64,000 nucleotides of DNA from Clostridia bacterium (lineage in GTDB: Bacteria; Bacillota; Clostridia; Oscillospirales; Butyricicoccaceae), in assembly GCA_017559995.1 (NCBI GenBank), contig JAFYPP010000005.1, positions 1 to 64,000 of the forward strand, in the 5' to 3' direction. The notes under the pieces are model-generated. The model made no database searches. It was not told the DNA's origin and worked only from the letters and a program-made list of their open reading frames with translations. Positions within the stretch are counted from its first letter, which is position 1; every line of letters begins with the position of its first letter. Positions 6,271 to 26,936 of this stretch are shown in pieces. A program made the translations under genes and the position numbers.

Positions 6271-7335
6271 ATGAAATGCCCAAAATGCGGATACAACATC
6301 CCTGCTGATAGTGAGTTTTGTCAGTATTGCGGCGTTAATATTGCCGAAGAGCAACGGAATCAAGCGGCGGAGCGGGCAGCGGCAGAAGCTGAACAAGCTG
6401 CAAAAAATCGTGAATACTACGGTATTGCCAAAGACCATTCCTCGGCAGATCAGGAACCCGATTCGCTTTTTACGCAGGCGTACAATTCCTACATAAGCCC
6501 TACAGCTGTGGGGCAACAGTTATTTGATGCTCTTATTGGCGGTGAGGCATTGAAAGAGGCATATCGAAAAGAACGCGAAAAACAAGCACAGCTGAACGAA
6601 GCAGGAATTAGAGTTAATTACAAGGACAGTTATCTGGAGTTCATGAGTGTTCTGAATAAGGAATATTCTTCCGGAATGCCCACTTCATCAAACCGTACCA
6701 CAAGCCCTCATCAGCCAACGAATTTCTCCGCACCGGCACCTTGCAGTTTTCAGCCTGCACCCTCAAAAAAGAAAGGGAGTTCCGCTGGAGTTCCCATAGT
6801 GATCCTTTCTGCTTTATTGGCAGTTTCAATTGGCGTAATTGCGTATTTATATTTTATTACAATTTCTGCACAGGTTACGCAAATCAAAGAAATGGAAGTG
6901 GCGGCAGCTGATAGATTGGATACAATCACCTCTTTGGAAAACACAATCACGATTAAGCAAAGTGTAATTGCTGAGCAAAAAAAAGAAATCTCCACCCTGA
7001 CCCAGAAAGGCAGTTACTTCGATGCTATATGTAAAGAACTGCGTTCTGGAAATATCGGTTACGCTGCAAATAATTTCAAATCTGATGAAAGTGTAATAGT
7101 CGTTAAAAAAAGTGAGCTGAATAGAAAGTTCACTCTCACGGCAAACTGGACGAATGGTGGCTCTGTATCTGTCGACTACTCTGGCTCTGCTGCTACGGTT
7201 TTATTTGATTCCGATTCGTGGACAACCTCTACCAAAATAACCGTTGTTCCCAAAACATCAGGTGTTACCGCTATCACCTTTAGCAATGATGTTGACTCGA
7301 ATACTTTTAAGGTTTTGATAATTGTAACCAACTGA
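6271..7335 (+). CDS. Zinc-ribbon, single-pass membrane protein with coiled coil and Ig-like end
   Basis: ATG 6271 follows AAGGGGG; 354 residues. Order of parts: N-terminal zinc ribbon (CPKCG, then CQYCG); Ala/Glu-rich coiled coil (about 25-50); a central cytoplasmic region; a Lys patch; one membrane segment (VPIVILSALLAVSIGVIAYL, about 185-210); an outside coiled coil (about 215-260); and a beta-rich end with KFTLTANWTNGGSVSV, like a bacterial Ig-like module. The arrangement suggests a sensor or scaffold joining a cytosolic ribbon to an outside domain. It shares the ribbon-membrane layout with its two operon neighbours. No enzymatic residues recognised. Confidence 0.65.
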   Translation: MKCPKCGYNIPADSEFCQYCGVNIAEEQRNQAAERAAAEAEQAAKNREYYGIAKDHSSADQEPDSLFTQAYNSYISPTAVGQQLFDALIGGEALKEAYRKEREKQAQLNEAGIRVNYKDSYLEFMSVLNKEYSSGMPTSSNRTTSPHQPTNFSAPAPCSFQPAPSKKKGSSAGVPIVILSALLAVSIGVIAYLYFITISAQVTQIKEMEVAAADRLDTITSLENTITIKQSVIAEQKKEISTLTQKGSYFDAICKELRSGNIGYAANNFKSDESVIVVKKSELNRKFTLTANWTNGGSVSVDYSGSAATVLFDSDSWTTSTKITVVPKTSGVTAITFSNDVDSNTFKVLIIVTN

Positions 7336-13955: not shown

Positions 13956-13983
13956 TTGACAATTCGCTTTGCCGGGTTATAAT
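13956..13983 (+). promoter_or_regulatory. Consensus sigma-A promoter for the B12 operon
   Basis: TTGACA at 13956-13961, a 16-base spacer, TATAAT at 13978-13983. Both hexamers are perfect. Transcription should start near 13990, at the 5' edge of the riboswitch. Confidence 0.85.
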
Positions 13984-13994
13984 GATACCAGACA

Positions 13995-14300
13995 ATCGAA
14001 CACACGCTGGATAGAGTCCGCTGCGCTAAAGGCCCATCGCCCATGTGCATCGGATGAGGAAATGGGGTGAAACTCCCCGCTGTACCGCAGCTGTAAGCGT
14101 TGAGACCGTGACTTGGGTGAAAACCCGCCATTGGGAAACCGAGAAGGCCGTCACGGGCGCAGGAGCAAGGCTCCACAAACGCAAGCCAGAAGACCGACTA
14201 TCAGAGCGCCGGAACATACTGCCCGGATCAGGCAGCACCGGAAACAGAAACACGCAGGAATATCGGCTGCGGCGAGTTTTCGCCGCAGCTTTTCTTTTTG
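13995..14300 (+). promoter_or_regulatory. Cobalamin riboswitch with transcription terminator
   Basis: The leader contains the hallmark B12-aptamer core: GGATGAGGAAATGGGGTGAA followed by ACTCC and GCTGTACCGCAGCTGTAAGC (about 14050-14100), and the late conserved GCCAGAAGACC box (14185-14195). A strong intrinsic terminator follows at 14266-14299 (GCTGCGGCG, loop, CGCCGCAGC, T-rich run). With adenosylcobalamin bound, transcription is expected to stop here. Without it, RNA polymerase would read into yezD and the intrinsic-factor-like genes. Confidence 0.92.
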
Positions 14301-14320: not shown

Positions 14321-14467
14321 ATGGCGGACAAGACCCCCAACCCCACCGAGCAGGCCATTTTGCAGGCCGTCCGCACGCTGGATTACGGCACGGTGGCGAT
14401 AACCGTCCACGACGGCAAACCCACTCTGCTGGAGGTCAGCAAGAAAATCAAACTCGTTTCATCTTAG
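14321..14467 (+). CDS. yezD: YezD-family small protein (DUF2292)
   Basis: 48 residues, starting at ATG 14321 behind GGAAAGGAGG. The sequence ILQAVRTLDYGTVAITVHDG, then a KK-IKL ending, matches the short YezD/DUF2292 family (one helix, then strands binding an unknown partner). Family members are often found with sulfur or methionine genes, which depend on B12. It is the first gene after the cobalamin riboswitch and is followed by its own terminator, so it may be expressed more than the genes behind it. Confidence 0.8.
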   Translation: MADKTPNPTEQAILQAVRTLDYGTVAITVHDGKPTLLEVSKKIKLVSS

Positions 14468-14613: not shown

Positions 14614-17600
14614 ATGAAAAAAAGATTGTTGAGTCTGGTATTGGCAGTTGCCATGATCTGCGCGCTGCTGCCTGCGGCGGCCTTTGCAGGGCAGGAGGAC
14701 ACGGTATATCTGTCGGCCTCTTATGACGGTGAATATCTGCCCGGTCTGGCCTATGCGGCGGTCAGTCTGTCCGAGCTGCAGTCCATTGATCTTGCGGATT
14801 ATGGTTTGAGCGACTTTGACACCGGTGAGATCACGGCGCTGCATCTGACCATCTATGCCCACACGGTCTGTCTGGACAAGGATTGGGACGATGTGCGGGT
14901 CAGCGGCTATCCGGGCGCCATTTTCTTTGAGGGCGGCCTCTTTGGATTTGCCGACTGTAATATGAACTACTACGTCAACGGCGAATACCCTGCCATTGAC
15001 GGCTGGGGCGTGACGATGGATCAATGCACGCTGTCCCCCGGCGATTTCATCGACTTTGCGGCCTATTCCAGCTGGAGCTTCTTTTATGACTCGGCGGCAG
15101 GCTTCCACTACTTTATGGACGGAGATCAGATCACCCACAATTACGAAATCGAGGAAGGCGAAAAGCTGACCGTCAAACTGGGCAGAACCTCCGGCGGACT
15201 GGGCGGCGAGACCCTGCTGAACGCCGAGGCCGATTATCCCATCTTCTGCGGTAAAACCCTTTTTGCAGAGGATGCGGAAACTGCAACGACGAACGGCAAC
15301 GGTGAAACCGAGTTTTCTTTTAACGGAGCGGGGACTTACTATCTTTGGGCCGACGGTGCCTATGGTAATGAAGATTTCATGAGCGTCGTATCCTCTCCGG
15401 CCTATGCGGAAGTGACGGTGGAGGCGGCACCCTGCACCCACGAGACTTGGAACGATGCTACCTGTACCACGCCCAAGACCTGTGCAGACTGTGGCGCAAC
15501 CGAGGGTAAAGCCGATCCCGAGGCCCACAGCTATGTGGAAGGCACTTGCGAGCATTGCGGCGCAGCCGAGCCTGTGGTCATCCCTTCCTACATCGTGACA
15601 TTACCCAGCGGCAGCGGTTATACCGTGACTGCAGCCGAAGGCAGCACCTCTCCTGTCACCGAGGGTGGCAGCTATCGTTTTACCGTAACCATCGCCGATG
15701 GCTACGAGGACGGTGCAGACTTTGCGGTCAAGGCCAACGATGTTGTGCTGACTGCTGTTGACGGCGTTTATACCATCGAAAATATCACGGCTGATCAGAC
15801 CATTGCTGTTGTGGGCGTGGTTGAGAAGACGCAAGAACCTGCCCCCACCTGGCGGGAAGTCATGGCGCTGACCCGCGATTACCTCACCGGACAGGCGGAG
15901 GAACAGACGCTCGGCGTTGGCTCCACCAAGGGTGAATGGCAGGTGTTGGGCCTGGCCCGCGACGGTGTGGAGGGTGACTTCTACGTAGCTTATTACGAAA
16001 TCGCGAAGGCGTATATCGAAGAAAATGCCGACGCCAACGGACGGCTGCACGCCAGCAAATCCACCGATAACTCCCGCTTGATCCTTGCGTTGACCGCCGT
16101 GGGCAAGGATGTCACCGATATCGCAGGCTGTGACCTGATCGCCGGCCTGTCCGACCTGAATTATGTAAAAAGTCAGGGAATCAACGGCGCGGTTTTTGCG
16201 CTGATCGCGCTGGATTCCTATGGTTATGACACCGCGGAAACTGCCACCGCCACCCGCGAGGCGCTCATTGACTACATTCTCGGAAAGGAACTGTCCGGCG
16301 GCGGCTGGGCGCTGTCCGGTCAGATCCCCGACGATATGACCCCTATGGCGGTGCAGGCATTGGCGCCCTATTACGATACCGATACCGCCGTCAAGACCGC
16401 CGTGGATAAGGCCCTCACCGTTACGGATGTCATGGTGGAGACTGCCTCCCCCGAAACCTGCGCTCAGATCATCGTGGCCCACGGCGCACTGGGACAGGAC
16501 AGCAGCGACGCCATGACCCGTATGCTGACCTTTGCGCTGAAGGACGGCAGCTTTGAAAAGGCGCCCGGCACGGGTGTCAACCAGATGTCCACCGAGCAGG
16601 CGTTTTACGCCATGGTGGCCTATGACCGCTATCTTTCCGGCGAAAATGCCCTGTACGATATGACCGATGTGGAACTGGAGCAGGTCCAGCCCGAACAGCC
16701 CACGACGGCAGAGACCGTCAAAGCAGCCATGGAAGCCTTGAAGGTCGAGAAGGCCGACAAAAATACCTACACTGCCATGCAGGCCATCCTGGAGGATTAT
16801 GCCAAGCTGACCCGCGAGGAAAAGGCGCTCATCTCCGACGCTTACGAGGCCTTCCTGGACAAGGAAGAGGATTTTGAAGATCTGCTGAAGGACGCCATCG
16901 ACGATGCCAAACTGGATCTGGAAGATCTCTACGAGGAGCTGGACAGCGCCGACTATACCGAAGAAAACTGGGACGAGATCCGTGCCTTGTATCGAGACAT
17001 CCGCGATCGGATGAAGAAGGTGCGCTACACCGAAGAACTGGAAGCGCTGCTGGAAACCTTTGAAGAAGAGGTGGACTGCATTCTGGTGGGTGCCATGGAG
17101 GTCACTTTCCGCCTGATCGGCGACTTCAAGCACGATAGCGGCGTTTCCGATCATGAAGGATACGTTACCTGGATCAAGACCACCGAGTACACCCTGCCCG
17201 CCGAAAGCACGGTCTATGATCTGCTGATGGAGGCGCTGGAGGAGTACGATCTGAACCAGAAGGGCGCGTCCAAAAACTATGTGGAATCCATCCAGGCGCC
17301 TGCGATCCTGGGCGGTTACTGGCTGGGTGAGTTTGACAACGGCCCCAATTCCGGCTGGATGTATACCATCAACGGCGACCATCCCGGCACCGGCCTGAAG
17401 GATCACGAGCTGGAGGACGGCGACGAGGTCATCTGGCACTATGTGGATGACTACACGCTGGAGCAGCGCAAGCCTTCTTCCAAATATTACGAGCATTGGC
17501 TGGAGGCCGATGATATCACTCCCGAAACCTATGTCAAGCGCAATCTGGACAGCATTGTCACCATCGAGGGCAAGGGCGAAGTTAAGCCCGAGCTGAAAAA

Positions 17601-18330
17601 CTCTCACATTGGCAAGGATGTGAAGTTTACCTTCACGCCTGCCGAGAGTTGGGTCATCCAGTCTGTCTCTGTGGACGGCAAGGACAAGGGCGCGATCGAA
17701 ACCTATACCTACAAAAAGCTGGCCATGGATGCCCGTATTGAGGTGATTTTTGAGCAGGCAGCGGAGGTTGCCGAGCCGCTGAACTTCACCGACGTACAGC
17801 CCGGCGACTGGTTCTATGACGACGTGTGCTTCGCCGTGTCCAACGGTCTGTTCAACGGTGTGGATGCCCAAATCTTTGCGCCCAATGCATCCATGACCCG
17901 TGCCATGCTGGTCACTGTGCTCTATCGGCTGGAGGGTCAGCCTGCCGTTGCCGGCAGCAGCACCTTTGCCGATGTGGCAGCCGGCGCATGGTATACTGAT
18001 GCCGTCATTTGGGCCACTCATAACGGCATTGTCAACGGTGTTGGCAACGGTCGGTTCGGCACCAATTACAACGTAACGAGGGAGCAGATCGCCGCCATCC
18101 TGTACCGCTATGCACAGACCTGCGGTTACGATACCGCTGCCCGTGCAAATCTCAGCGGCTATACCGATGGGGCAAGCATCGGCAACTATGCAAAGGACGC
18201 TATGGCGTGGGTCAATGCTGTGGGATTGATCAACGGCCGTGCCGCCGCCACGCTGGCGCCCACCGGCACCGCTACCCGTGCCGAAGTGGCTGCTATGCTC
18301 CACCGCTTTGCGGAAACTGTCGCAAAATAA
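14614..18330 (+). CDS. SLH-anchored intrinsic-factor/transcobalamin-like protein
   Basis: 1238 residues; ATG 14614 after AGGAGG. Signal peptide 1-25 (cut after AFA). Parts in order: N-terminal beta region; a CxxC-rich stretch near 270-320; an InlB-type beta repeat (about 329-405); an alpha/alpha-barrel domain (about 412-690) with terpenoid-cyclase/prenyltransferase repeats (INGAVFALIALDSYGY, SGGGWALSGQIPDDMTPMAV); a charged helical linker (about 700-820); a DUF4430 domain (about 831-950; NSGWMYTINGDHPG, LEDGDEVIWHYVDDY); another beta module; and three SLH domains (about 1056-1236). Alpha barrel plus DUF4430 is the domain pair of intrinsic factor and transcobalamin, which bind cobalamin between them. 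Control by the B12 riboswitch supports a cobalamin-capture role at the cell wall. Binding itself is inferred. Confidence 0.82.
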   Translation: MKKRLLSLVLAVAMICALLPAAAFAGQEDTVYLSASYDGEYLPGLAYAAVSLSELQSIDLADYGLSDFDTGEITALHLTIYAHTVCLDKDWDDVRVSGYPGAIFFEGGLFGFADCNMNYYVNGEYPAIDGWGVTMDQCTLSPGDFIDFAAYSSWSFFYDSAAGFHYFMDGDQITHNYEIEEGEKLTVKLGRTSGGLGGETLLNAEADYPIFCGKTLFAEDAETATTNGNGETEFSFNGAGTYYLWADGAYGNEDFMSVVSSPAYAEVTVEAAPCTHETWNDATCTTPKTCADCGATEGKADPEAHSYVEGTCEHCGAAEPVVIPSYIVTLPSGSGYTVTAAEGSTSPVTEGGSYRFTVTIADGYEDGADFAVKANDVVLTAVDGVYTIENITADQTIAVVGVVEKTQEPAPTWREVMALTRDYLTGQAEEQTLGVGSTKGEWQVLGLARDGVEGDFYVAYYEIAKAYIEENADANGRLHASKSTDNSRLILALTAVGKDVTDIAGCDLIAGLSDLNYVKSQGINGAVFALIALDSYGYDTAETATATREALIDYILGKELSGGGWALSGQIPDDMTPMAVQALAPYYDTDTAVKTAVDKALTVTDVMVETASPETCAQIIVAHGALGQDSSDAMTRMLTFALKDGSFEKAPGTGVNQMSTEQAFYAMVAYDRYLSGENALYDMTDVELEQVQPEQPTTAETVKAAMEALKVEKADKNTYTAMQAILEDYAKLTREEKALISDAYEAFLDKEEDFEDLLKDAIDDAKLDLEDLYEELDSADYTEENWDEIRALYRDIRDRMKKVRYTEELEALLETFEEEVDCILVGAMEVTFRLIGDFKHDSGVSDHEGYVTWIKTTEYTLPAESTVYDLLMEALEEYDLNQKGASKNYVESIQAPAILGGYWLGEFDNGPNSGWMYTINGDHPGTGLKDHELEDGDEVIWHYVDDYTLEQRKPSSKYYEHWLEADDITPETYVKRNLDSIVTIEGKGEVKPELKNSHIGKDVKFTFTPAESWVIQSVSVDGKDKGAIETYTYKKLAMDARIEVIFEQAAEVAEPLNFTDVQPGDWFYDDVCFAVSNGLFNGVDAQIFAPNASMTRAMLVTVLYRLEGQPAVAGSSTFADVAAGAWYTDAVIWATHNGIVNGVGNGRFGTNYNVTREQIAAILYRYAQTCGYDTAARANLSGYTDGASIGNYAKDAMAWVNAVGLINGRAAATLAPTGTATRAEVAAMLHRFAETVAK

Positions 18331-18337
18331 ATTGAAC

Positions 18338-18383
18338 GCACAAGGCCAGCCTCGATTTCCCGGGGCTGGCACCTGTGCTTTTT
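18338..18383 (+). terminator. Intergenic hairpin between the two SLH genes
   Basis: GCACA/TGTGC and GGCCAGCC/GGCTGGC stems close a loop, followed by five T, just before the next ribosome site. It probably lowers expression of the downstream genes or protects RNA ends. Confidence 0.6.
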
Positions 18384-18398
18384 CAAAGGAGGATGCAA

Positions 18399-19751
18399 AT
18401 GTTCCGTTTTCAAAGAATCTGTGCTCTGCCGCTGGTCATCCTGCTGGCTGTCAGCATGATCCTGCCCGCTTCTGCTGCCGATTCCCTGACCGACACCGGC
18501 AGTTGGCTGCAGAAAAAGATCACCGCCCCGGCCGTTGCTTCGGTGGGCGGTGAGTGGGCGGTGATCGGTCTGGCTCGCTCGGATATCGAGGTGCCGCAGA
18601 ACTGGTACGATTCCTATTATAATAATGTTGTAACCACGGTAAAAGCCTGCGGCGGTGTACTGCACAAGCGGAAATATACCGAATACTCCCGTGTGGTGCT
18701 GGCCCTTACCGCCATCGGCAAGGATCCCGCCAATGTTGCGGGTTATAACCTGCTGAACCCCCTTTCCGACTTCGATGCCACCGTTTGGCAGGGAGTCAAC
18801 GGCGCCATTTGGGCGCTCATCGCCTTGGACAGTGGCAGCTATGTAAGCACCGTGCGGCAGGATTATGTGGATCACATCGCGGCGCATCAGCTTTCTTGCG
18901 GAGGTTGGGCGCTGTCGGGAGAAACACCCGATACCGATCTCACGGCCATGGCTTTGCAGGCGCTGGCCGGATACCGAACCCAGCCTGCCGTCAAAAGAGC
19001 CGTCGACAGGGCCTTGAGCTGGCTTTCCAAAACCCAGAACGCCGACGGCAGTTTTTCGGTGGAGGGGATCCCCACCTGCGAATCTACCGCGCAGGTGCTG
19101 GTGGCAATGGGCGCTCTTGGCATGGATCCGGAGGATAGCCGTTTCGTCAAAAACGGTTGTACGGCAGAGAAAGCGCTGTTGTCCTTTTACACCGCTGGTA
19201 AAGGGTTTTCCCATGCCCGGGGTGGCGGTACCGACGGCATGGCCACTGAACAGGCCTTTTATGCGTTGGTATCTTTGCGGCGTCAGCGTGAAAACCGACC
19301 TGCGCTGTATGATATCTGTCCCTTTGCCGATTTGAACGGTCATCCTAACCGCAAGGCCATTTTGTCGCTGTATGACCGAGGCATCGCCAACGGCATGGGG
19401 GATGGCAGCTTTTCGCCTGACGCCACCATGACCCGGGCACAGTTCTGCACCATGGTCAGCCGTGCGTTGGAGTTAAAGCCGACCTACCGCCCGGTGTTTT
19501 CTGATGTGAAGCAGAGTGACTGGTATGGCGGCTGGGTCAGCGCCGCCAATGCCAATGGCATTGTCAACGGTGTTGGCAGCGGTCGTTTCGACCCGGAAGG
19601 CACCATCATCGGTCAGCACGCCGCCCTGATGGTCAATCGTGCCGCCGCGGTGCTGGGCGTGTCGCACACCGCTGTCAATTCATCTGCCAAGCCCATCCGC
19701 CGGTGCGAGATGGCACAAATGGTCTTTGACCTGTTGGAGGCGGCAAAATGA
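18399..19751 (+). CDS. SLH-anchored alpha-barrel (intrinsic-factor alpha-domain-like) protein
   Basis: 450 residues; ATG 18399 placed 6 bases after AAAGGAGG. Signal peptide about 1-27 (ends ASA). Residues about 35-300 form the same terpenoid-cyclase-like barrel as the larger protein (GVNGAIWALIALDSGSY, SCGGWALSGETPDTDLTAMAL, GMATEQAFYALV). Two clear SLH domains and a degenerate third follow (about 305-450). It lacks DUF4430, but the next gene encodes that domain alone. Together they could form a two-part version of intrinsic factor, one part on the cell wall and one on the membrane. Same operon, B12-controlled. Confidence 0.8.
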   Translation: MFRFQRICALPLVILLAVSMILPASAADSLTDTGSWLQKKITAPAVASVGGEWAVIGLARSDIEVPQNWYDSYYNNVVTTVKACGGVLHKRKYTEYSRVVLALTAIGKDPANVAGYNLLNPLSDFDATVWQGVNGAIWALIALDSGSYVSTVRQDYVDHIAAHQLSCGGWALSGETPDTDLTAMALQALAGYRTQPAVKRAVDRALSWLSKTQNADGSFSVEGIPTCESTAQVLVAMGALGMDPEDSRFVKNGCTAEKALLSFYTAGKGFSHARGGGTDGMATEQAFYALVSLRRQRENRPALYDICPFADLNGHPNRKAILSLYDRGIANGMGDGSFSPDATMTRAQFCTMVSRALELKPTYRPVFSDVKQSDWYGGWVSAANANGIVNGVGSGRFDPEGTIIGQHAALMVNRAAAVLGVSHTAVNSSAKPIRRCEMAQMVFDLLEAAK

Positions 19752-20233
19752 GAAAACTATGTGTACTTTTGTGTCTGCTGCTGACCCTTTCCGGCTGCAG
19801 CAAACCTGCAGCGGTGGAGATCACCGGCCCGGCATGCACCATCTCTATCTCCTGTGCCACGATCTTGAACAATCCGGAAAAGCTGGATTCCGAAAAGTCC
19901 GAACTGGTGCCTGTTGATGGCTGGCTGCTGACGGAAACAAAGGTAGCGCTGCAGGAGGGGGACAGCGTCTTTGAATTGCTGCTGCGGGCCTGTCATGAGA
20001 ACGATCTGCACATGGAATATGTGGACACACCCCTGTATGATTCGGCCTATATCGAGGGTATCGGCAACCTGTACGAGTTCGACTGCGGCAACGAGTCGGG
20101 GTGGATGTACAGCGTAAACGGCATATTCCCCAATTACGGCTGCAGTCAGCACAAGCCCCAGGACGGCGACGTGATCCGCTGGGTCTACACCTGTGATCTC
20201 GGGCGGGACGTGGGCGAACGGATGGCGGAGTGA
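19748..20233 (+). CDS. DUF4430 (transcobalamin beta-domain-like) lipoprotein
   Basis: 161 residues. The ATG overlaps the stop of the previous gene (ATGA), so the two are translationally coupled. A lipoprotein signal ends at LSGC (Cys18). The rest is a single DUF4430 domain: DSVFELLLRACHENDLHMEY, then YIEGIGNLYEFDCGNESGWM, NGIFPNYGC and DGDVIRWVYTCD. This domain is related to the C-terminal cobalamin-covering domain of transcobalamin. It is anchored in the membrane, where it could receive B12 from the SLH proteins and pass it to a BtuF/BtuCD-type importer, none of which is in the window. Confidence 0.82.
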   Translation: MRKLCVLLCLLLTLSGCSKPAAVEITGPACTISISCATILNNPEKLDSEKSELVPVDGWLLTETKVALQEGDSVFELLLRACHENDLHMEYVDTPLYDSAYIEGIGNLYEFDCGNESGWMYSVNGIFPNYGCSQHKPQDGDVIRWVYTCDLGRDVGERMAE

Positions 20234-21690: not shown

Positions 21691-21824
21691 ACGGCGGAAG
21701 AAGAGACACTCCCCTTTTTCATTAGTGTAGCGCAACGCTATTGCATATTGAAATTGTCAGAACTATAATGGACTCAAGAAGCCCTATAGAATTGTCGAAA
21801 TATAAGAAATGCGAGGGTACAGCT

Positions 21825-24800
21825 ATGAAACGAACACAAAGATGGATTTCGTTGGTTCTGTGTGTGGCCATGGTTTTTACTGTGTTACCAACACAGGTAT
21901 TGGCCGCTTCAAGAACTTTGTCAAAAAGCCGTAGTGCTAGCACAAAGACCTATTCGGATGCGATAAAGCCGGGTGATTTTTTGATATTGGGAAATTATAA
22001 TGGACATCCATTGCTGTGGACGGTTGTTAACTCAGCGGGCGGAGAGGTAACGCTGTTTTGCAGTGAGGTTCTCTTCGAGGGTGAAATCGACGCATCAATG
22101 CATGAGGTTATTGCCTATGCAAACTTAGTTGGTGGTGCGTGGGAAGGCGATAGCAATTGGCACACCAGTGATATCCGGAATTACCTGAACTCGGATGAAA
22201 AAGTAGTTAGCTATAAAGGGGCATCAAAAAATGAGTTACCGAGTTATTCTTCTTTGCCTGGCTTTCTCAACAATTTTACCCAAGATGAACTTTCGCTGAT
22301 TGTCGATACTACTCATAAATCTCATATACAATACCACCGTACACTAACTGATAAGGACGGTGGAAGTTCGTTTGCAAGAATAGAGATGTTTGATGATCTT
22401 TTGGGTTTCAACGAGAACGCATACAGGGGTTTAGCTTATAAAAATACTACAGAAAAGTTTTTTCTGCCCGATGCGATGGACTTGAAACGGGCAAACGAGA
22501 ACATTGGCAGCATGATGTATATGGAGTATGCTTATGATACTGCTAATGGTCAGCATTATGCCCCTGCATACAGAGAAGGGTTTTGGTTACGTGAACCTGT
22601 AATTTCTGGATCGAACTATCTTTTTTGGGGTATATATTTTTTGGATACCTTCAGCAGTAATGGGGCCGGGTATGCAGTTTTCAAGAGAGGCATTCGACCA
22701 ATGTGCAATATCCAGTTCCCTTACAAGCAAACTCTTTCAGGCGAAGGCACACTCAAATCGCCGTATGAAATTAACCATGGAGATAATGAGGCACAAAAGG
22801 TTCAGAAGCCACAGACTCTTGACGTGCCTAACGGGAAATATTGTATCTGCGTAGTGGATGAAACCGGACAGCCGATAGAAAATGCATCTGTTAATTGGAC
22901 TGTCTACTGGGATGATAGCGATGGCATAACCGAGGAACAATTTACAGACGAAAAAGGTTGTGTATTCTTTGATCGCTTTACGGTAGATCTTCCACTTATT
23001 ACAGTCGAAAAAGACAACTATATTAAATGGACAAACCAGGATACCAATTGGCAAAAGAGTGAGGAGCATTTCGAGAAGGTTGTGCTTTATCCCAAAGCGT
23101 ACGGCGCGTATAAACTGAAAGAGGCTCGGTTCTCCGCAAATAATCTTGTTTGGACCTGGGATCTGTTGACTAAAACGAAAAAACGAACACTTGGCACGGA
23201 TGCAGATCTTGTATGGGATGCAAATAATGCCACTTTCTACCTTTCCTGTTCCGCATATGAAGCAGATCGTATTTCCTCCTATGAGTTGTGGCAAAAGGAC
23301 CAACTCATCGCAACAAGCACGACTGGTTTCTTTGAAGAACTATCCAATGAACAATTCTCTGAGGGTGGCGGCTGTTTCGTTCGCGTTATCTCAACGGACA
23401 ATACCAAAGTAGATACTGCAATCAACCTAGAGTTTATCAAGGCGGAGATCAATAAGAATATGTCGCTAAATCTTATGAGTGACAGACTAACGTTTAAGAT
23501 AGCGGACAGTATACCTTTTGTGGGTGGAACCACGGTGAACTTTTCTTGGCCCATCACCGTGCCTGTTACTGCAGTTTTGACCGACGGAAAAGTTCAGTTT
23601 GGCTTTAATGTAAACATGGAAGGCGGGAAATCTGACGAAGAAAAAATTAAAGACGTAAAAGAAGTGATTACAAAGGCTCGCGATCTTAAAAGCGCATTCA
23701 CCAAACAAAACTATGCCAAATATTTGTCACTGGTACATGAACCTTCTCCTGTTGAGTTTTTTGGAGATGCAGAAGTTAATATACTGGGTTATGCTGAAAT
23801 GGACCTCGGGAGTCCTGTTGCTTCTGGATATATCATACTGGAAATGGAGGCCAGTCTGGTTGAGTATGGTTACGATACATTGGTGCCGGTTTTGACTATA
23901 ATTCTCCCCGTTACGGTACAATGCGAACTAAGTGCCGGCATGGATGTGCAGGCAGGCGTTTCTTACGACTGGGAGAACGCAACATTTCGCAGTGCTCTGA
24001 CATTCAACCCGTGGGCTGAACTAGAGGCTTTTGGCGGAGTTGGTGCTAAAAAAATTGCGGGCGTTGGTGCATATGGTAGTGCGCTATTAGAGGCAGAAAT
24101 TAAAACCAAAGGCACGCCGAATGGTCTGCAATACATCGATCTTACCGGTGAACTGGGTATAAAGGCATATCTGGGTCCGTTTTCCGGTGAACGACCGTTT
24201 GCATATGATACGTGGCATATCTATTCTGCCAATAATGTTAAGCGGCTTACCTTGGATGACCGGGCAACGCTTTGGAACTCGATTTTTGATGCCTCAACCT
24301 ACCAACTGCAAGATTTAAGCTATCTTAGCGAGGAAAGCGGGCAACTTGGCGAAGTAGTTTTCGCCGAACCAATGGCCGCTGCTGCAGGCAGCGCAAAGAC
24401 GGCGTTTACAAACCTGCTGCAAAACACCTATCGGAATGCACAACCTGTAATGGTCGCAACAGAAGATGCTGTCTATGTGGCCTTTCTGCATGCGAACTCA
24501 GAAACGGGAAACATTTATGTTGTCACGGCAAAATACGATGGAGAAGGTTGGTTTGGAACAGTTCGTGCGGATGACAACGCGCTTTTGGATGATGCGCCCA
24601 GCCTGTGCGTCGACGAAAACGGTACGATTCACTTAGCCTATGCCAGAACTGATTCTGCCTTTGATGGCGAAACGCTTTTGAGTTATGCCGAGAACCAAAG
24701 CATTGTTGTAGGAACACTTGATCCGGATACACTGGAGTTTACTGAAACAGAGGAGTATTTTGCCGAAGGATATGCAAATAAGCAACAGTTAGTTCTCATT

Positions 24801-26936
24801 GACGGCACCCCCACGCTGGGCTGGTTAGACTCTGTCGTATCGGATGATAATAGTGTGCTATTCCCAGCGAGTGCTGACATCTGCTACGCTGAGTATCGAT
24901 CCGGAAAATGGAGCACCGCGAACGTGTTTGCTTCGGTGGATCAAGCTGTAATATCCATGGTGGTTGGAGAGACAGATTCGTCTCTTTCTGTCGGATATAT
25001 TGCTGATACCGATGGCGATTCAGCAACCACAGATGATTACACGCTATATGAGGTAACTGACGAGGGCATTACTGAACTTGCAACTGGTGTTACGGGTAAA
25101 ATCTCTTATGGCGTGTTCCCTGGAACAAAAGTAACTACTTTGCTTTGGAATGACAGTAGCCATCTGTACTCGGCACTTGGCGATGAGATTGCAATCAGTG
25201 GAATCACTAATGAGTATGCAATTGTCAATGATCGTATCTACTTCAGCGCGGCAGAAGAAGACAGCGCAAACTTGTGCGTAGTCCAGTATGAAGACAACAA
25301 CTGGTCTCTCCCGATGACACTAACCGATGGAACGCGTTATCTTGAGGATCTGTCGGTCATTTCCTGGAATGGTGAAGACTATGTATTGGGAATGCATACT
25401 TTAGCAACAATCTACTCTACCGAAATTGTCGATGCAAAGAACCTGGTATGGTCGAAGGTTGCTCCGGTAAATGATTTGAAATTAGAAAGTGTGGATTATG
25501 ATGCCAACAGTTTAGAGCCAGGTGAAGAAACTGAACTCACGCTTTCTATTGTCAACGCAGGTGAAGGAATCGTCGAAAACATCGATATTTACATTGACGA
25601 TACACTTGTAAGCACCGAAATCATTGACTTGTATCCTGGAGAAAATGCAGAAATTGTTATTGAAATCGAATGTCCTGATGCGCTAAAGATGTATGATGTG
25701 TCTATTGCTGAGCCAGACGTCAATGACTATACACCAGAGGATAATACTTTTGCGATAACGGTAGGTTATTCAGATGTCTCTATAGCGATGGTATATGAAC
25801 AGATCGGCGAATACAGCGCGGTGCTCGCATACGTCACTAATGATGGTGTTGATATTGCCTCTGGACATGTTGCCTTTTATGATGACAACCATTACTTTAT
25901 GGGTTCCGGTGAGTTTGCTGATCTACCTGTCGGTGAAACCATCGTAGTCACATGCATTTTGAGTGATGCATTTGTCGGAAATGGTGACATTGACATTTCT
26001 GCCGAGGTGATATGCGCCGCTGAGGATCTCTACGGTTATAACAATGTTGCCACTGTCCATATTGGTGAAATTACGTATGCTACCGAGGTTCAGTTGGTAA
26101 GATTCGATGGCAAAACAGCAACTTCTCTTATTACTTGTGCGCCTGGCACCCATAATACTGCGTTGTTGGCAGCCTATAGCGCTAGTGGCCAGATGCTTGA
26201 GGCATACACCTTCCCTCTTGACGAAGGCGTAAATCAAATCAAACAGAACATTGCGGCTACGGAAGTCGTCTGTGTTCGGGTCTTTTTGCTCAATAAACAC
26301 TATGAGCCTCAAGGCTCTGCGGTGACGGAGATTAATAGAAATGATTTCCGCGCAGAGTTTGCTGAAGCATTATCGGGGCTGACGTATACTCGTAATGCAA
26401 CCTCGGTGGATATTTTCCGGGACGCAGAGGAAATCGATGCAAAATGTGCAGGTTCTGTTTTACGGATGTTTAACTTCGGCCTTATGCTTGGTGATAATAG
26501 AGGTGTTTTCCATCCTGAATCAGCAATAACCCGCGCGGAGTTGGCACAAATAATTTACGTCGCATTGAATGGCGGCGTAGATGATGGTGCTGGTGCTTAT
26601 GCTGACGAGGAACGTTTTTCCGATGTAACCGCTGATGATTGGTATGCTGGATATGCACATTATTGCGCAGAATACAATCTGGGCCCAGCCTCTGGTTATT
26701 TTGACGGTATGGCTCCTGTGACTGTTCCCGAAGCCGCAAGAATAATTTTGGGCGCTATGGGTTATTCTTCTGAATCGTGTGGTTTTGTTGGAGCTAATTG
26801 GTTTAACAATGTCTTGGCTGCTGCAGAGGTTAAAGGCTTGCTCGATGGATTCAATTACTCAACCAACACGTATATTCCTCGCCAGTGGCTTGCGGTCATG
26901 TTCTGTAATGCAATTGACAAAGTACAATCTCAATGA
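21825..26936 (+). CDS. Giant SLH surface protein with DUF6273 and CARDB-like modules
   Basis: 1703 residues; ATG 21825 after GAGGG. Signal peptide about 1-27 (VLPTQVLA). Near 35-300 is a DUF6273-type domain (WTVVNSAGGEVTLFCSEVLF, SDIRNYLNS, FLPDAMDL, GIRPMCNI). A Cna-like beta module follows, then long beta-rich stretches with propeller-like repeats (about 850-1180). A CARDB-like adhesion module lies near 1220-1300 (LTLSIVNAGEGIVENIDIYI). A module shared with the BspA-like protein in C0 (VRVFLLNKHYEP) and a C-terminal SLH region (about 1535-1700; AITRAELAQIIYVAL, FSDVTADDWYAG) complete it. Single-gene cargo of C4. AT-richer than the B12 genes before it. Probably an adhesin or surface-layer-attached scaffold. 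Confidence 0.78.
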   Translation: MKRTQRWISLVLCVAMVFTVLPTQVLAASRTLSKSRSASTKTYSDAIKPGDFLILGNYNGHPLLWTVVNSAGGEVTLFCSEVLFEGEIDASMHEVIAYANLVGGAWEGDSNWHTSDIRNYLNSDEKVVSYKGASKNELPSYSSLPGFLNNFTQDELSLIVDTTHKSHIQYHRTLTDKDGGSSFARIEMFDDLLGFNENAYRGLAYKNTTEKFFLPDAMDLKRANENIGSMMYMEYAYDTANGQHYAPAYREGFWLREPVISGSNYLFWGIYFLDTFSSNGAGYAVFKRGIRPMCNIQFPYKQTLSGEGTLKSPYEINHGDNEAQKVQKPQTLDVPNGKYCICVVDETGQPIENASVNWTVYWDDSDGITEEQFTDEKGCVFFDRFTVDLPLITVEKDNYIKWTNQDTNWQKSEEHFEKVVLYPKAYGAYKLKEARFSANNLVWTWDLLTKTKKRTLGTDADLVWDANNATFYLSCSAYEADRISSYELWQKDQLIATSTTGFFEELSNEQFSEGGGCFVRVISTDNTKVDTAINLEFIKAEINKNMSLNLMSDRLTFKIADSIPFVGGTTVNFSWPITVPVTAVLTDGKVQFGFNVNMEGGKSDEEKIKDVKEVITKARDLKSAFTKQNYAKYLSLVHEPSPVEFFGDAEVNILGYAEMDLGSPVASGYIILEMEASLVEYGYDTLVPVLTIILPVTVQCELSAGMDVQAGVSYDWENATFRSALTFNPWAELEAFGGVGAKKIAGVGAYGSALLEAEIKTKGTPNGLQYIDLTGELGIKAYLGPFSGERPFAYDTWHIYSANNVKRLTLDDRATLWNSIFDASTYQLQDLSYLSEESGQLGEVVFAEPMAAAAGSAKTAFTNLLQNTYRNAQPVMVATEDAVYVAFLHANSETGNIYVVTAKYDGEGWFGTVRADDNALLDDAPSLCVDENGTIHLAYARTDSAFDGETLLSYAENQSIVVGTLDPDTLEFTETEEYFAEGYANKQQLVLIDGTPTLGWLDSVVSDDNSVLFPASADICYAEYRSGKWSTANVFASVDQAVISMVVGETDSSLSVGYIADTDGDSATTDDYTLYEVTDEGITELATGVTGKISYGVFPGTKVTTLLWNDSSHLYSALGDEIAISGITNEYAIVNDRIYFSAAEEDSANLCVVQYEDNNWSLPMTLTDGTRYLEDLSVISWNGEDYVLGMHTLATIYSTEIVDAKNLVWSKVAPVNDLKLESVDYDANSLEPGEETELTLSIVNAGEGIVENIDIYIDDTLVSTEIIDLYPGENAEIVIEIECPDALKMYDVSIAEPDVNDYTPEDNTFAITVGYSDVSIAMVYEQIGEYSAVLAYVTNDGVDIASGHVAFYDDNHYFMGSGEFADLPVGETIVVTCILSDAFVGNGDIDISAEVICAAEDLYGYNNVATVHIGEITYATEVQLVRFDGKTATSLITCAPGTHNTALLAAYSASGQMLEAYTFPLDEGVNQIKQNIAATEVVCVRVFLLNKHYEPQGSAVTEINRNDFRAEFAEALSGLTYTRNATSVDIFRDAEEIDAKCAGSVLRMFNFGLMLGDNRGVFHPESAITRAELAQIIYVALNGGVDDGAGAYADEERFSDVTADDWYAGYAHYCAEYNLGPASGYFDGMAPVTVPEAARIILGAMGYSSESCGFVGANWFNNVLAAAEVKGLLDGFNYSTNTYIPRQWLAVMFCNAIDKVQSQ

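Follow-up and report, generated by a model that had tools for sequence, protein, structure and literature searches.

The vitamin B12 carriers of animals, transcobalamin, intrinsic factor and haptocorrin, combine an alpha/alpha barrel with a beta-grasp domain of the DUF4430 type. Produced as separate proteins, the two domains of human transcobalamin (TC-alpha and TC-beta) come together only if cobalamin is there (PMC5599065); binding starts at the beta-domain, after which the alpha-domain closes and exerts its selection (PMC11107200). In bacteria, toroid-SLBB proteins were predicted to be B12 scavengers by Burroughs et al. in 2007 (PMC1796856). As described there, these proteins have the same two domains and a surface location, and they belong to CbiQ/CbiO-like operons, often alongside one more SLBB protein outside the cell. 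How many gut bacteria take up B12 and its precursors has been described as an open problem (PMC6593275).

We analysed a 64,000-nucleotide stretch of DNA from a Clostridia bacterium of the gut (contig JAFYPP010000005.1, hereafter the window), in which the barrel and the DUF4430 domain also occur on two coupled genes, one for a secreted SLH protein and one for a lipoprotein. We propose, with a probability of about 0.68, that this pair is a corrinoid (B12) receptor of the transcobalamin type, split by nature into two proteins, which feeds an ECF importer.

The window cluster: a riboswitch, a fused protein and a split pair

The cluster (Table 1) is headed by a cobalamin riboswitch, which had escaped the sequence-only reading and whose RF00174 aptamer scores above the gathering threshold. 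Together, the promoter-like site, the aptamer and the terminator-like hairpin appear to be arranged as a transcriptional OFF switch. They are followed by the DUF2292 gene, the 1238-aa gene and the pair, in that order. A small ORF equivalent to the DUF2292 gene lies at the same place in a sister locus (L071, 595-738). On the 3' side of the pair, the window carries a 1731-aa SLH protein with DUF6273 (21741-26936), which has neither barrel nor DUF4430 and is probably an unrelated surface protein.

Table 1. Features of the window cluster, in window coordinates
Feature	Position	Strand	Basis and remarks
Promoter-like site TTGACA-16-TATAAT	13956..13983	+	5' of riboswitch; 12/12 consensus matches, consensus match only
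Cobalamin riboswitch aptamer (RF00174)	14013..14216	+	46.1 bits vs gathering score 31.5; full model length
Terminator-like hairpin and T-run 3' of aptamer	14265..14300	+	11-pair stem, then TTTCTTTTTG; probable expression platform
48-aa DUF2292 protein, gene 1 after riboswitch	14321..14467	+	Pfam PF10055, E 2e-10
1238-aa SLH protein, barrel and DUF4430 in one chain (fused form)	14614..18330	+	Pfam; own profiles; AF2 model
Alpha/alpha barrel domain of the 1238-aa fused protein	15871..16647	+	Residues 420-678
DUF4430 domain of the 1238-aa fused protein	17149..17463	+	Residues 846-950; Pfam 865-943, E 1.2e-12
Hairpin and TTTTT between fused gene and pair	18345..18384	+	Fold z-score -4.7; inverted repeat
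450-aa secreted SLH protein, barrel only (alpha half of split pair)	18399..19751	+	Pfam, own profile
Barrel domain of the split pair	18492..19301	+	Profile match E 1e-131
161-aa DUF4430 lipoprotein (beta half of split pair)	19748..20233	+	Pfam PF14478 E 8e-19; lipobox by pattern
DUF4430 domain of the split pair	19889..20209	+	Residues 48-154

The 450-aa gene has a ribosome site, AGGAGG, at about 18386, and its product consists of a signal peptide, an alpha/alpha toroid and SLH repeats. Pfam found two significant SLH matches (E 1.7e-21), and the C-terminus resembles a truncated third repeat; the Prenyltrans/SQHop matches of the barrel fell just under the cut-off, and Pfam detected no DUF4430 in this protein. 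In the 161-aa protein, for which Pfam detected no barrel, the lipobox LSGC ends at residue 17 according to a pattern match, with the Pfam LPAM_1 match below cut-off. The beta-grasp domain PF14478, of the transcobalamin clade, was found by Pfam in this lipoprotein and in the 1238-aa protein. At least 90% of the DUF4430 domains of the split group share three cysteines, in TC..SISC and YTC (alignment A3; P0002 residues around 30-36 and 148). The stop of the barrel gene and the start of the DUF4430 gene overlap as ATGA (19748-19751). Hence, the sequence-only reading had been right in its coordinates and frames when it claimed a four-base overlap, and its assignment of the barrel alone to the SLH protein and of DUF4430 alone to the lipoprotein agrees with both Pfam and our profiles. 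Its placing of one part on the wall and the other on the membrane fits the SLH repeats of the one as opposed to the lipobox, or N-terminal hydrophobic anchor, of the other.

As had also been claimed, the upstream 1238-aa protein unites both domains in one chain: its barrel is followed by a mostly helical linker and then by DUF4430, and SLH repeats are present as well. Its barrel and the one in the 450-aa protein are homologues (iterated profile, E 7e-88), and its DUF4430 falls in another subgroup than that of the split pair. The idea that one operon holds a fused and a split form of the same pair was therefore correct in that both forms are present, but the fused protein is no simple twin, since its DUF4430 subgroup differs and other genomes show other architectures for it.

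Between the fused gene and the pair lies a stable hairpin (18345-18370) followed by TTTTT. Similar hairpins with T-rich tails and a different stem sequence occur in two sister loci, just before the ribosome site of the barrel gene (L070, about 7005-7045; L071, 9798-9905). The window hairpin may be a partial terminator or a processing site. Because of it, full co-transcription of the fused gene with the pair is likely but not certain.

Relation to the fold of the B12 carriers

An AF2 model was computed for residues 412-956 of the fused protein with 17 natural fused sequences, and it reached a pLDDT of 90.5 and a pTM of 0.57. Its top 14 PDB matches were all transcobalamin, intrinsic factor or haptocorrin, with alignments across both domains and E values from 9e-7 to 2e-4; the first unrelated match was squalene-hopene cyclase, at 4e-4. 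The beta part matched 5no0 and 5np4, which are structures of the isolated human transcobalamin beta-domain, as well as 3u7z, a structure from Ruminococcus gnavus that carries the annotation putative metal-binding protein. Both domains aligned with transcobalamin at 6-7 A rmsd over about 334 residues, a deviation that makes the relative placement of the domains in the model unreliable. A second structural comparison of the barrel listed mainly generic alpha/alpha toroids. AF2 models and PDB fold matches identify an alpha/alpha toroid as in the transcobalamin/intrinsic-factor carriers, and the fold match of the fused form supports the proposal that the barrel corresponds to the alpha half, and DUF4430 to the beta half, of the B12-carrier fold. 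The two halves share one chain in the 1238-aa protein and in a natural fusion from another genome (L141, see below), and lie on two chains in the window pair. The model of that natural fusion was very good for its split-group barrel and weak for its DUF4430 part, and we left it out of any reading of domain arrangement.

At the sequence level, there is very weak similarity to the carriers of vertebrates. The beta-domain of transcobalamin-2 came second among the matches of the DUF4430 profile, at an E value of 0.29; a profile of the split-group DUF4430s only, searched against PDB sequences, gave chance matches only. The barrel profile search found cyclases, with no vertebrate carrier among its matches.

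Conservation of the pair and linkage to importer genes and riboswitches

We scanned a species-genome collection with split barrels as queries, which returned 382 relatives, and kept the best 80; these loci come from Clostridia, Paenibacillus and Desulfotomaculum. A separate DUF4430 gene lay 3' of the barrel gene in 75 of these best 80, mostly within about 25 bp or overlapping. Among the exceptions, two loci reach a contig end just past the barrel (L087 and L101), one has a fused barrel-DUF4430 gene next (L135), one is a natural DUF4430-barrel fusion of 506 aa with a lipobox (L141), and one has no adjoining DUF4430 gene (L103). With a separate DUF4430 gene following in 75/80 loci, the barrel-then-DUF4430 arrangement is far beyond chance. 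The check that had been suggested for other genomes thus came out in favour of the pairing, by these loci and by the L141 fusion. In the same family, DUF4430 was found in 25 of 87 genomes, and 13 further genomes examined with their flanks had the DUF4430 gene 3' of the barrel gene. The L141 genome (2533-4216 and 9344-10864) contains both a split pair and the DUF4430-barrel fusion lipoprotein; in the split pair, a barrel protein with a C-terminal hydrophobic segment and a DUF4430 lipoprotein are followed by EcfT and EcfA. Some DUF4430 proteins stand without an adjoining barrel gene (L037, 1-543; L039, 2012-2821; L042, 2742-3413; L045, 2778-3542). They belong to the subgroup of the split pair, and three have lipoboxes, the L037 protein being cut by the contig start.

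Anchors and neighbours were counted over the 76 loci that we called pairs, L141 included. The barrel protein carries SLH in 65 of them; the DUF4430 protein has a lipobox in 11, and in most others a hydrophobic N-terminus without one. Anchors vary, whereas the pairing stays. The giant SLH gene upstream is likewise variable between genomes (barrel and DUF4430 in 21 loci, DUF4430 only in 29, no recognised neighbour in 23), whereas the split pair is constant.

EcfT is the next gene after the pair in 68/76 loci. In these relatives, a divergent CbiQ-like EcfT is followed by a protein of about 900 aa that comprises two ECF ATPases and, at its C-terminus, an ECF S component. Adjacency of EcfT and EcfA to the pair thus holds in most relatives but not in the window, whose genome has an EcfT-EcfA pair on a separate 3-kb contig. 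In a sister locus (L063), the corresponding EcfT lies 3' of another barrel-SLH gene, with no DUF4430. EcfT-EcfA is apart from the pair in this genus (L062, which is the genome's own contig C68, L063, L065 and L069), and metK is next to it in L065 and L069. Because of the adjoining metK, we searched these second-type barrel-EcfT loci for other riboswitches and found none.

Among three partners compared, the DUF4430 protein was the most conserved, with a mean identity of 73% (barrel, 59%; EcfT, 57%). A role as a hub in contact with ligand, importer and barrel alike would fit this conservation, which is no proof of it. Distances correlated at r 0.69 for barrels and DUF4430s and at 0.67 for barrels and EcfT. 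Since the latter is about as high, we attribute the former to operon co-inheritance.

Cobalamin riboswitches recur at these loci. They lie directly 5' of the split pair in three genomes (G062, G073 and G074) and just 5' of the barrel gene in two Paenibacillus loci (L080 and L085); in the G024 genome, two tandem cobalamin riboswitches precede an HNH homing-repeat gene and then the barrel gene (L047, 13589-14988). When the 80 loci were scanned for the core motif, about 27 had a site at most 900 bp upstream of a cluster gene, where simple shuffles predict 1.7 sites in the whole set, and an Rfam re-test of core-motif loci confirmed 7 of 7. Two cobalamin riboswitches were found in the window's own genome; the second, on contig C105, is directly 5' of another DUF4430-SLH gene, without barrel (L038, 3431-4968). 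Together, the riboswitches and the ECF importer linkage in relatives lend independent support to B12 as the ligand.

In the owner genome, which is 97% complete with assembly gaps, we detected no FecCD (BtuC-type) permease, CbiC or CbiB, all of which are present in the same-genus genomes tested, and we found three proteins with B12-binding domains. For these reasons, and allowing for the assembly gaps, the owner looks dependent on imported corrinoid.

A proposed split corrinoid receptor and its known counterparts

Collectively, a role of the pair in B12/corrinoid uptake is well supported, and the pair probably catches B12 as a device of two parts. Most likely, the two close in dependence on the ligand, which is then transferred to the S component. 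The SLH protein would keep the barrel within the cell wall, and the lipoprotein would present the DUF4430 beta-domain at the external face of the membrane; a corrinoid would be sandwiched between them and then passed to the ECF importer, that is, EcfT and the protein with two ATPases and the S component. We infer the corrinoid nature of the ligand and its hand-over to the importer, and closure of both halves on one ligand is suggested by the natural fusion and by analogy with the separated human domains. The fused 1238-aa protein would serve as a further surface binder from the same riboswitch-headed cluster, in which plentiful B12 would cause the riboswitch to stop transcription. Several observations weigh against this reading: the very weak sequence similarity to vertebrate carriers, the likeness of the barrel on its own to many toroid enzymes, the modest pTM and deviating domain placement of the fused model, the importer genes lying away from the pair in this genome, the hairpin that may part the pair from the fused gene, and the barrel tree, which agrees with the DUF4430 tree no better than with that of EcfT.

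One alternative is that the barrel protein on the wall (with the fused giant) and the DUF4430 lipoprotein at the membrane each bind corrinoid alone and pass it on without ever forming one sandwich. The isolated human beta-domain does bind cobalamin alone (PMC5599065), and both the solo DUF4430 lipoproteins of the same genus and the barrel-ECF locus without DUF4430 would suit such a relay. Against it stand the near-constant pairing and the L141 fusion, as well as the vertebrate carriers, which need both halves for high affinity (PMC5599065, PMC11107200), and we consider a relay without closure unlikely.

We give still less credit to a genuine receptor for another ligand, for instance another large cofactor or a fragment of a cobalamin precursor. 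The DUF4430 family is broad, toroids are a generic fold and some loci have no riboswitch detected beside them; yet cobalamin riboswitches lie directly 5' of the pair in several genomes and B12 carriers are the top fold matches. Finally, the isolated barrel finds its best sequence and fold matches in squalene-hopene and drimenyl diphosphate cyclases, as if it were a terpene-cyclase or glycosidase toroid enzyme, with DUF4430 acting alone and the adjacency structurally meaningless. However, the barrel is secreted and wall-anchored, it is tied to an importer and to B12 riboswitches, and it is joined to DUF4430 in one chain in the upstream protein and in L141; we set the enzyme role aside as highly improbable.

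Coming back to the split receptor, a more detailed version of it is attractive, although we hold it only tentatively and at somewhat less than even odds. The ligand itself would join two differently anchored proteins, and closing of the wall-borne alpha half on the membrane-borne beta half would commit B12 to the ECF importer. The whole would be a corrinoid importer widespread among Gram-positive bacteria, with the split pair as its constant core and the fused giants as an outer layer of capture proteins that varies. If so, nature would have produced in the ligand-joined pair what was made artificially by separating the transcobalamin domains. A receptor with one half on the wall and the other on the membrane would be an unusual means of carrying a bulky and scarce cofactor through a thick wall. 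A conserved, riboswitch-linked split receptor would offer a specific route of uptake that can be put to the test, here in a genome in which no CbiC, CbiB or BtuC-type genes were detected. Since one bacterial cluster carries fused and split forms of the fold, it also bears on the origin of animal intrinsic factor and transcobalamin.

To our knowledge, the folds of BtuG and BtuH of Bacteroides are unrelated to the barrel-DUF4430 fold and are not split into half-domains. In the accounts cited here, these lipoproteins likewise capture B12 at the surface ahead of a transporter in gut bacteria, and they work with the outer-membrane transporter BtuB (PMC6143338, PMC10404256, PMC8941943). The vitamin B12 importer ECF-CbrT resembles our system in that an ECF-type importer is the likely destination of the corrinoid; CbrT uses a shared ECF module, whereas here the module is dedicated, ATPases and S component form one protein, and putative receptors stand on wall and membrane; we liken the two by type (PMC5997447). 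A literature search returned six papers that mention DUF4430 and no paper combining cobalamin-binding with an SLH domain, which is weak evidence of novelty as most subscription journals lay outside the search. Compared with the animal B12 carriers, the window pair is encoded by two genes and has different anchors, sequence similarity is very weak, and binding is a prediction. The toroid-SLBB proteins are another close precedent. The portions of that work on which we draw concern toroid-SLBB fusions and do not describe separate, coupled toroid and SLBB genes with riboswitch linkage (PMC1796856). Set against them, the present case extends that picture by a core pair that is carried on two coupled genes with different anchors, is the constant element of the operon, is directly linked to a riboswitch and has a natural fusion.
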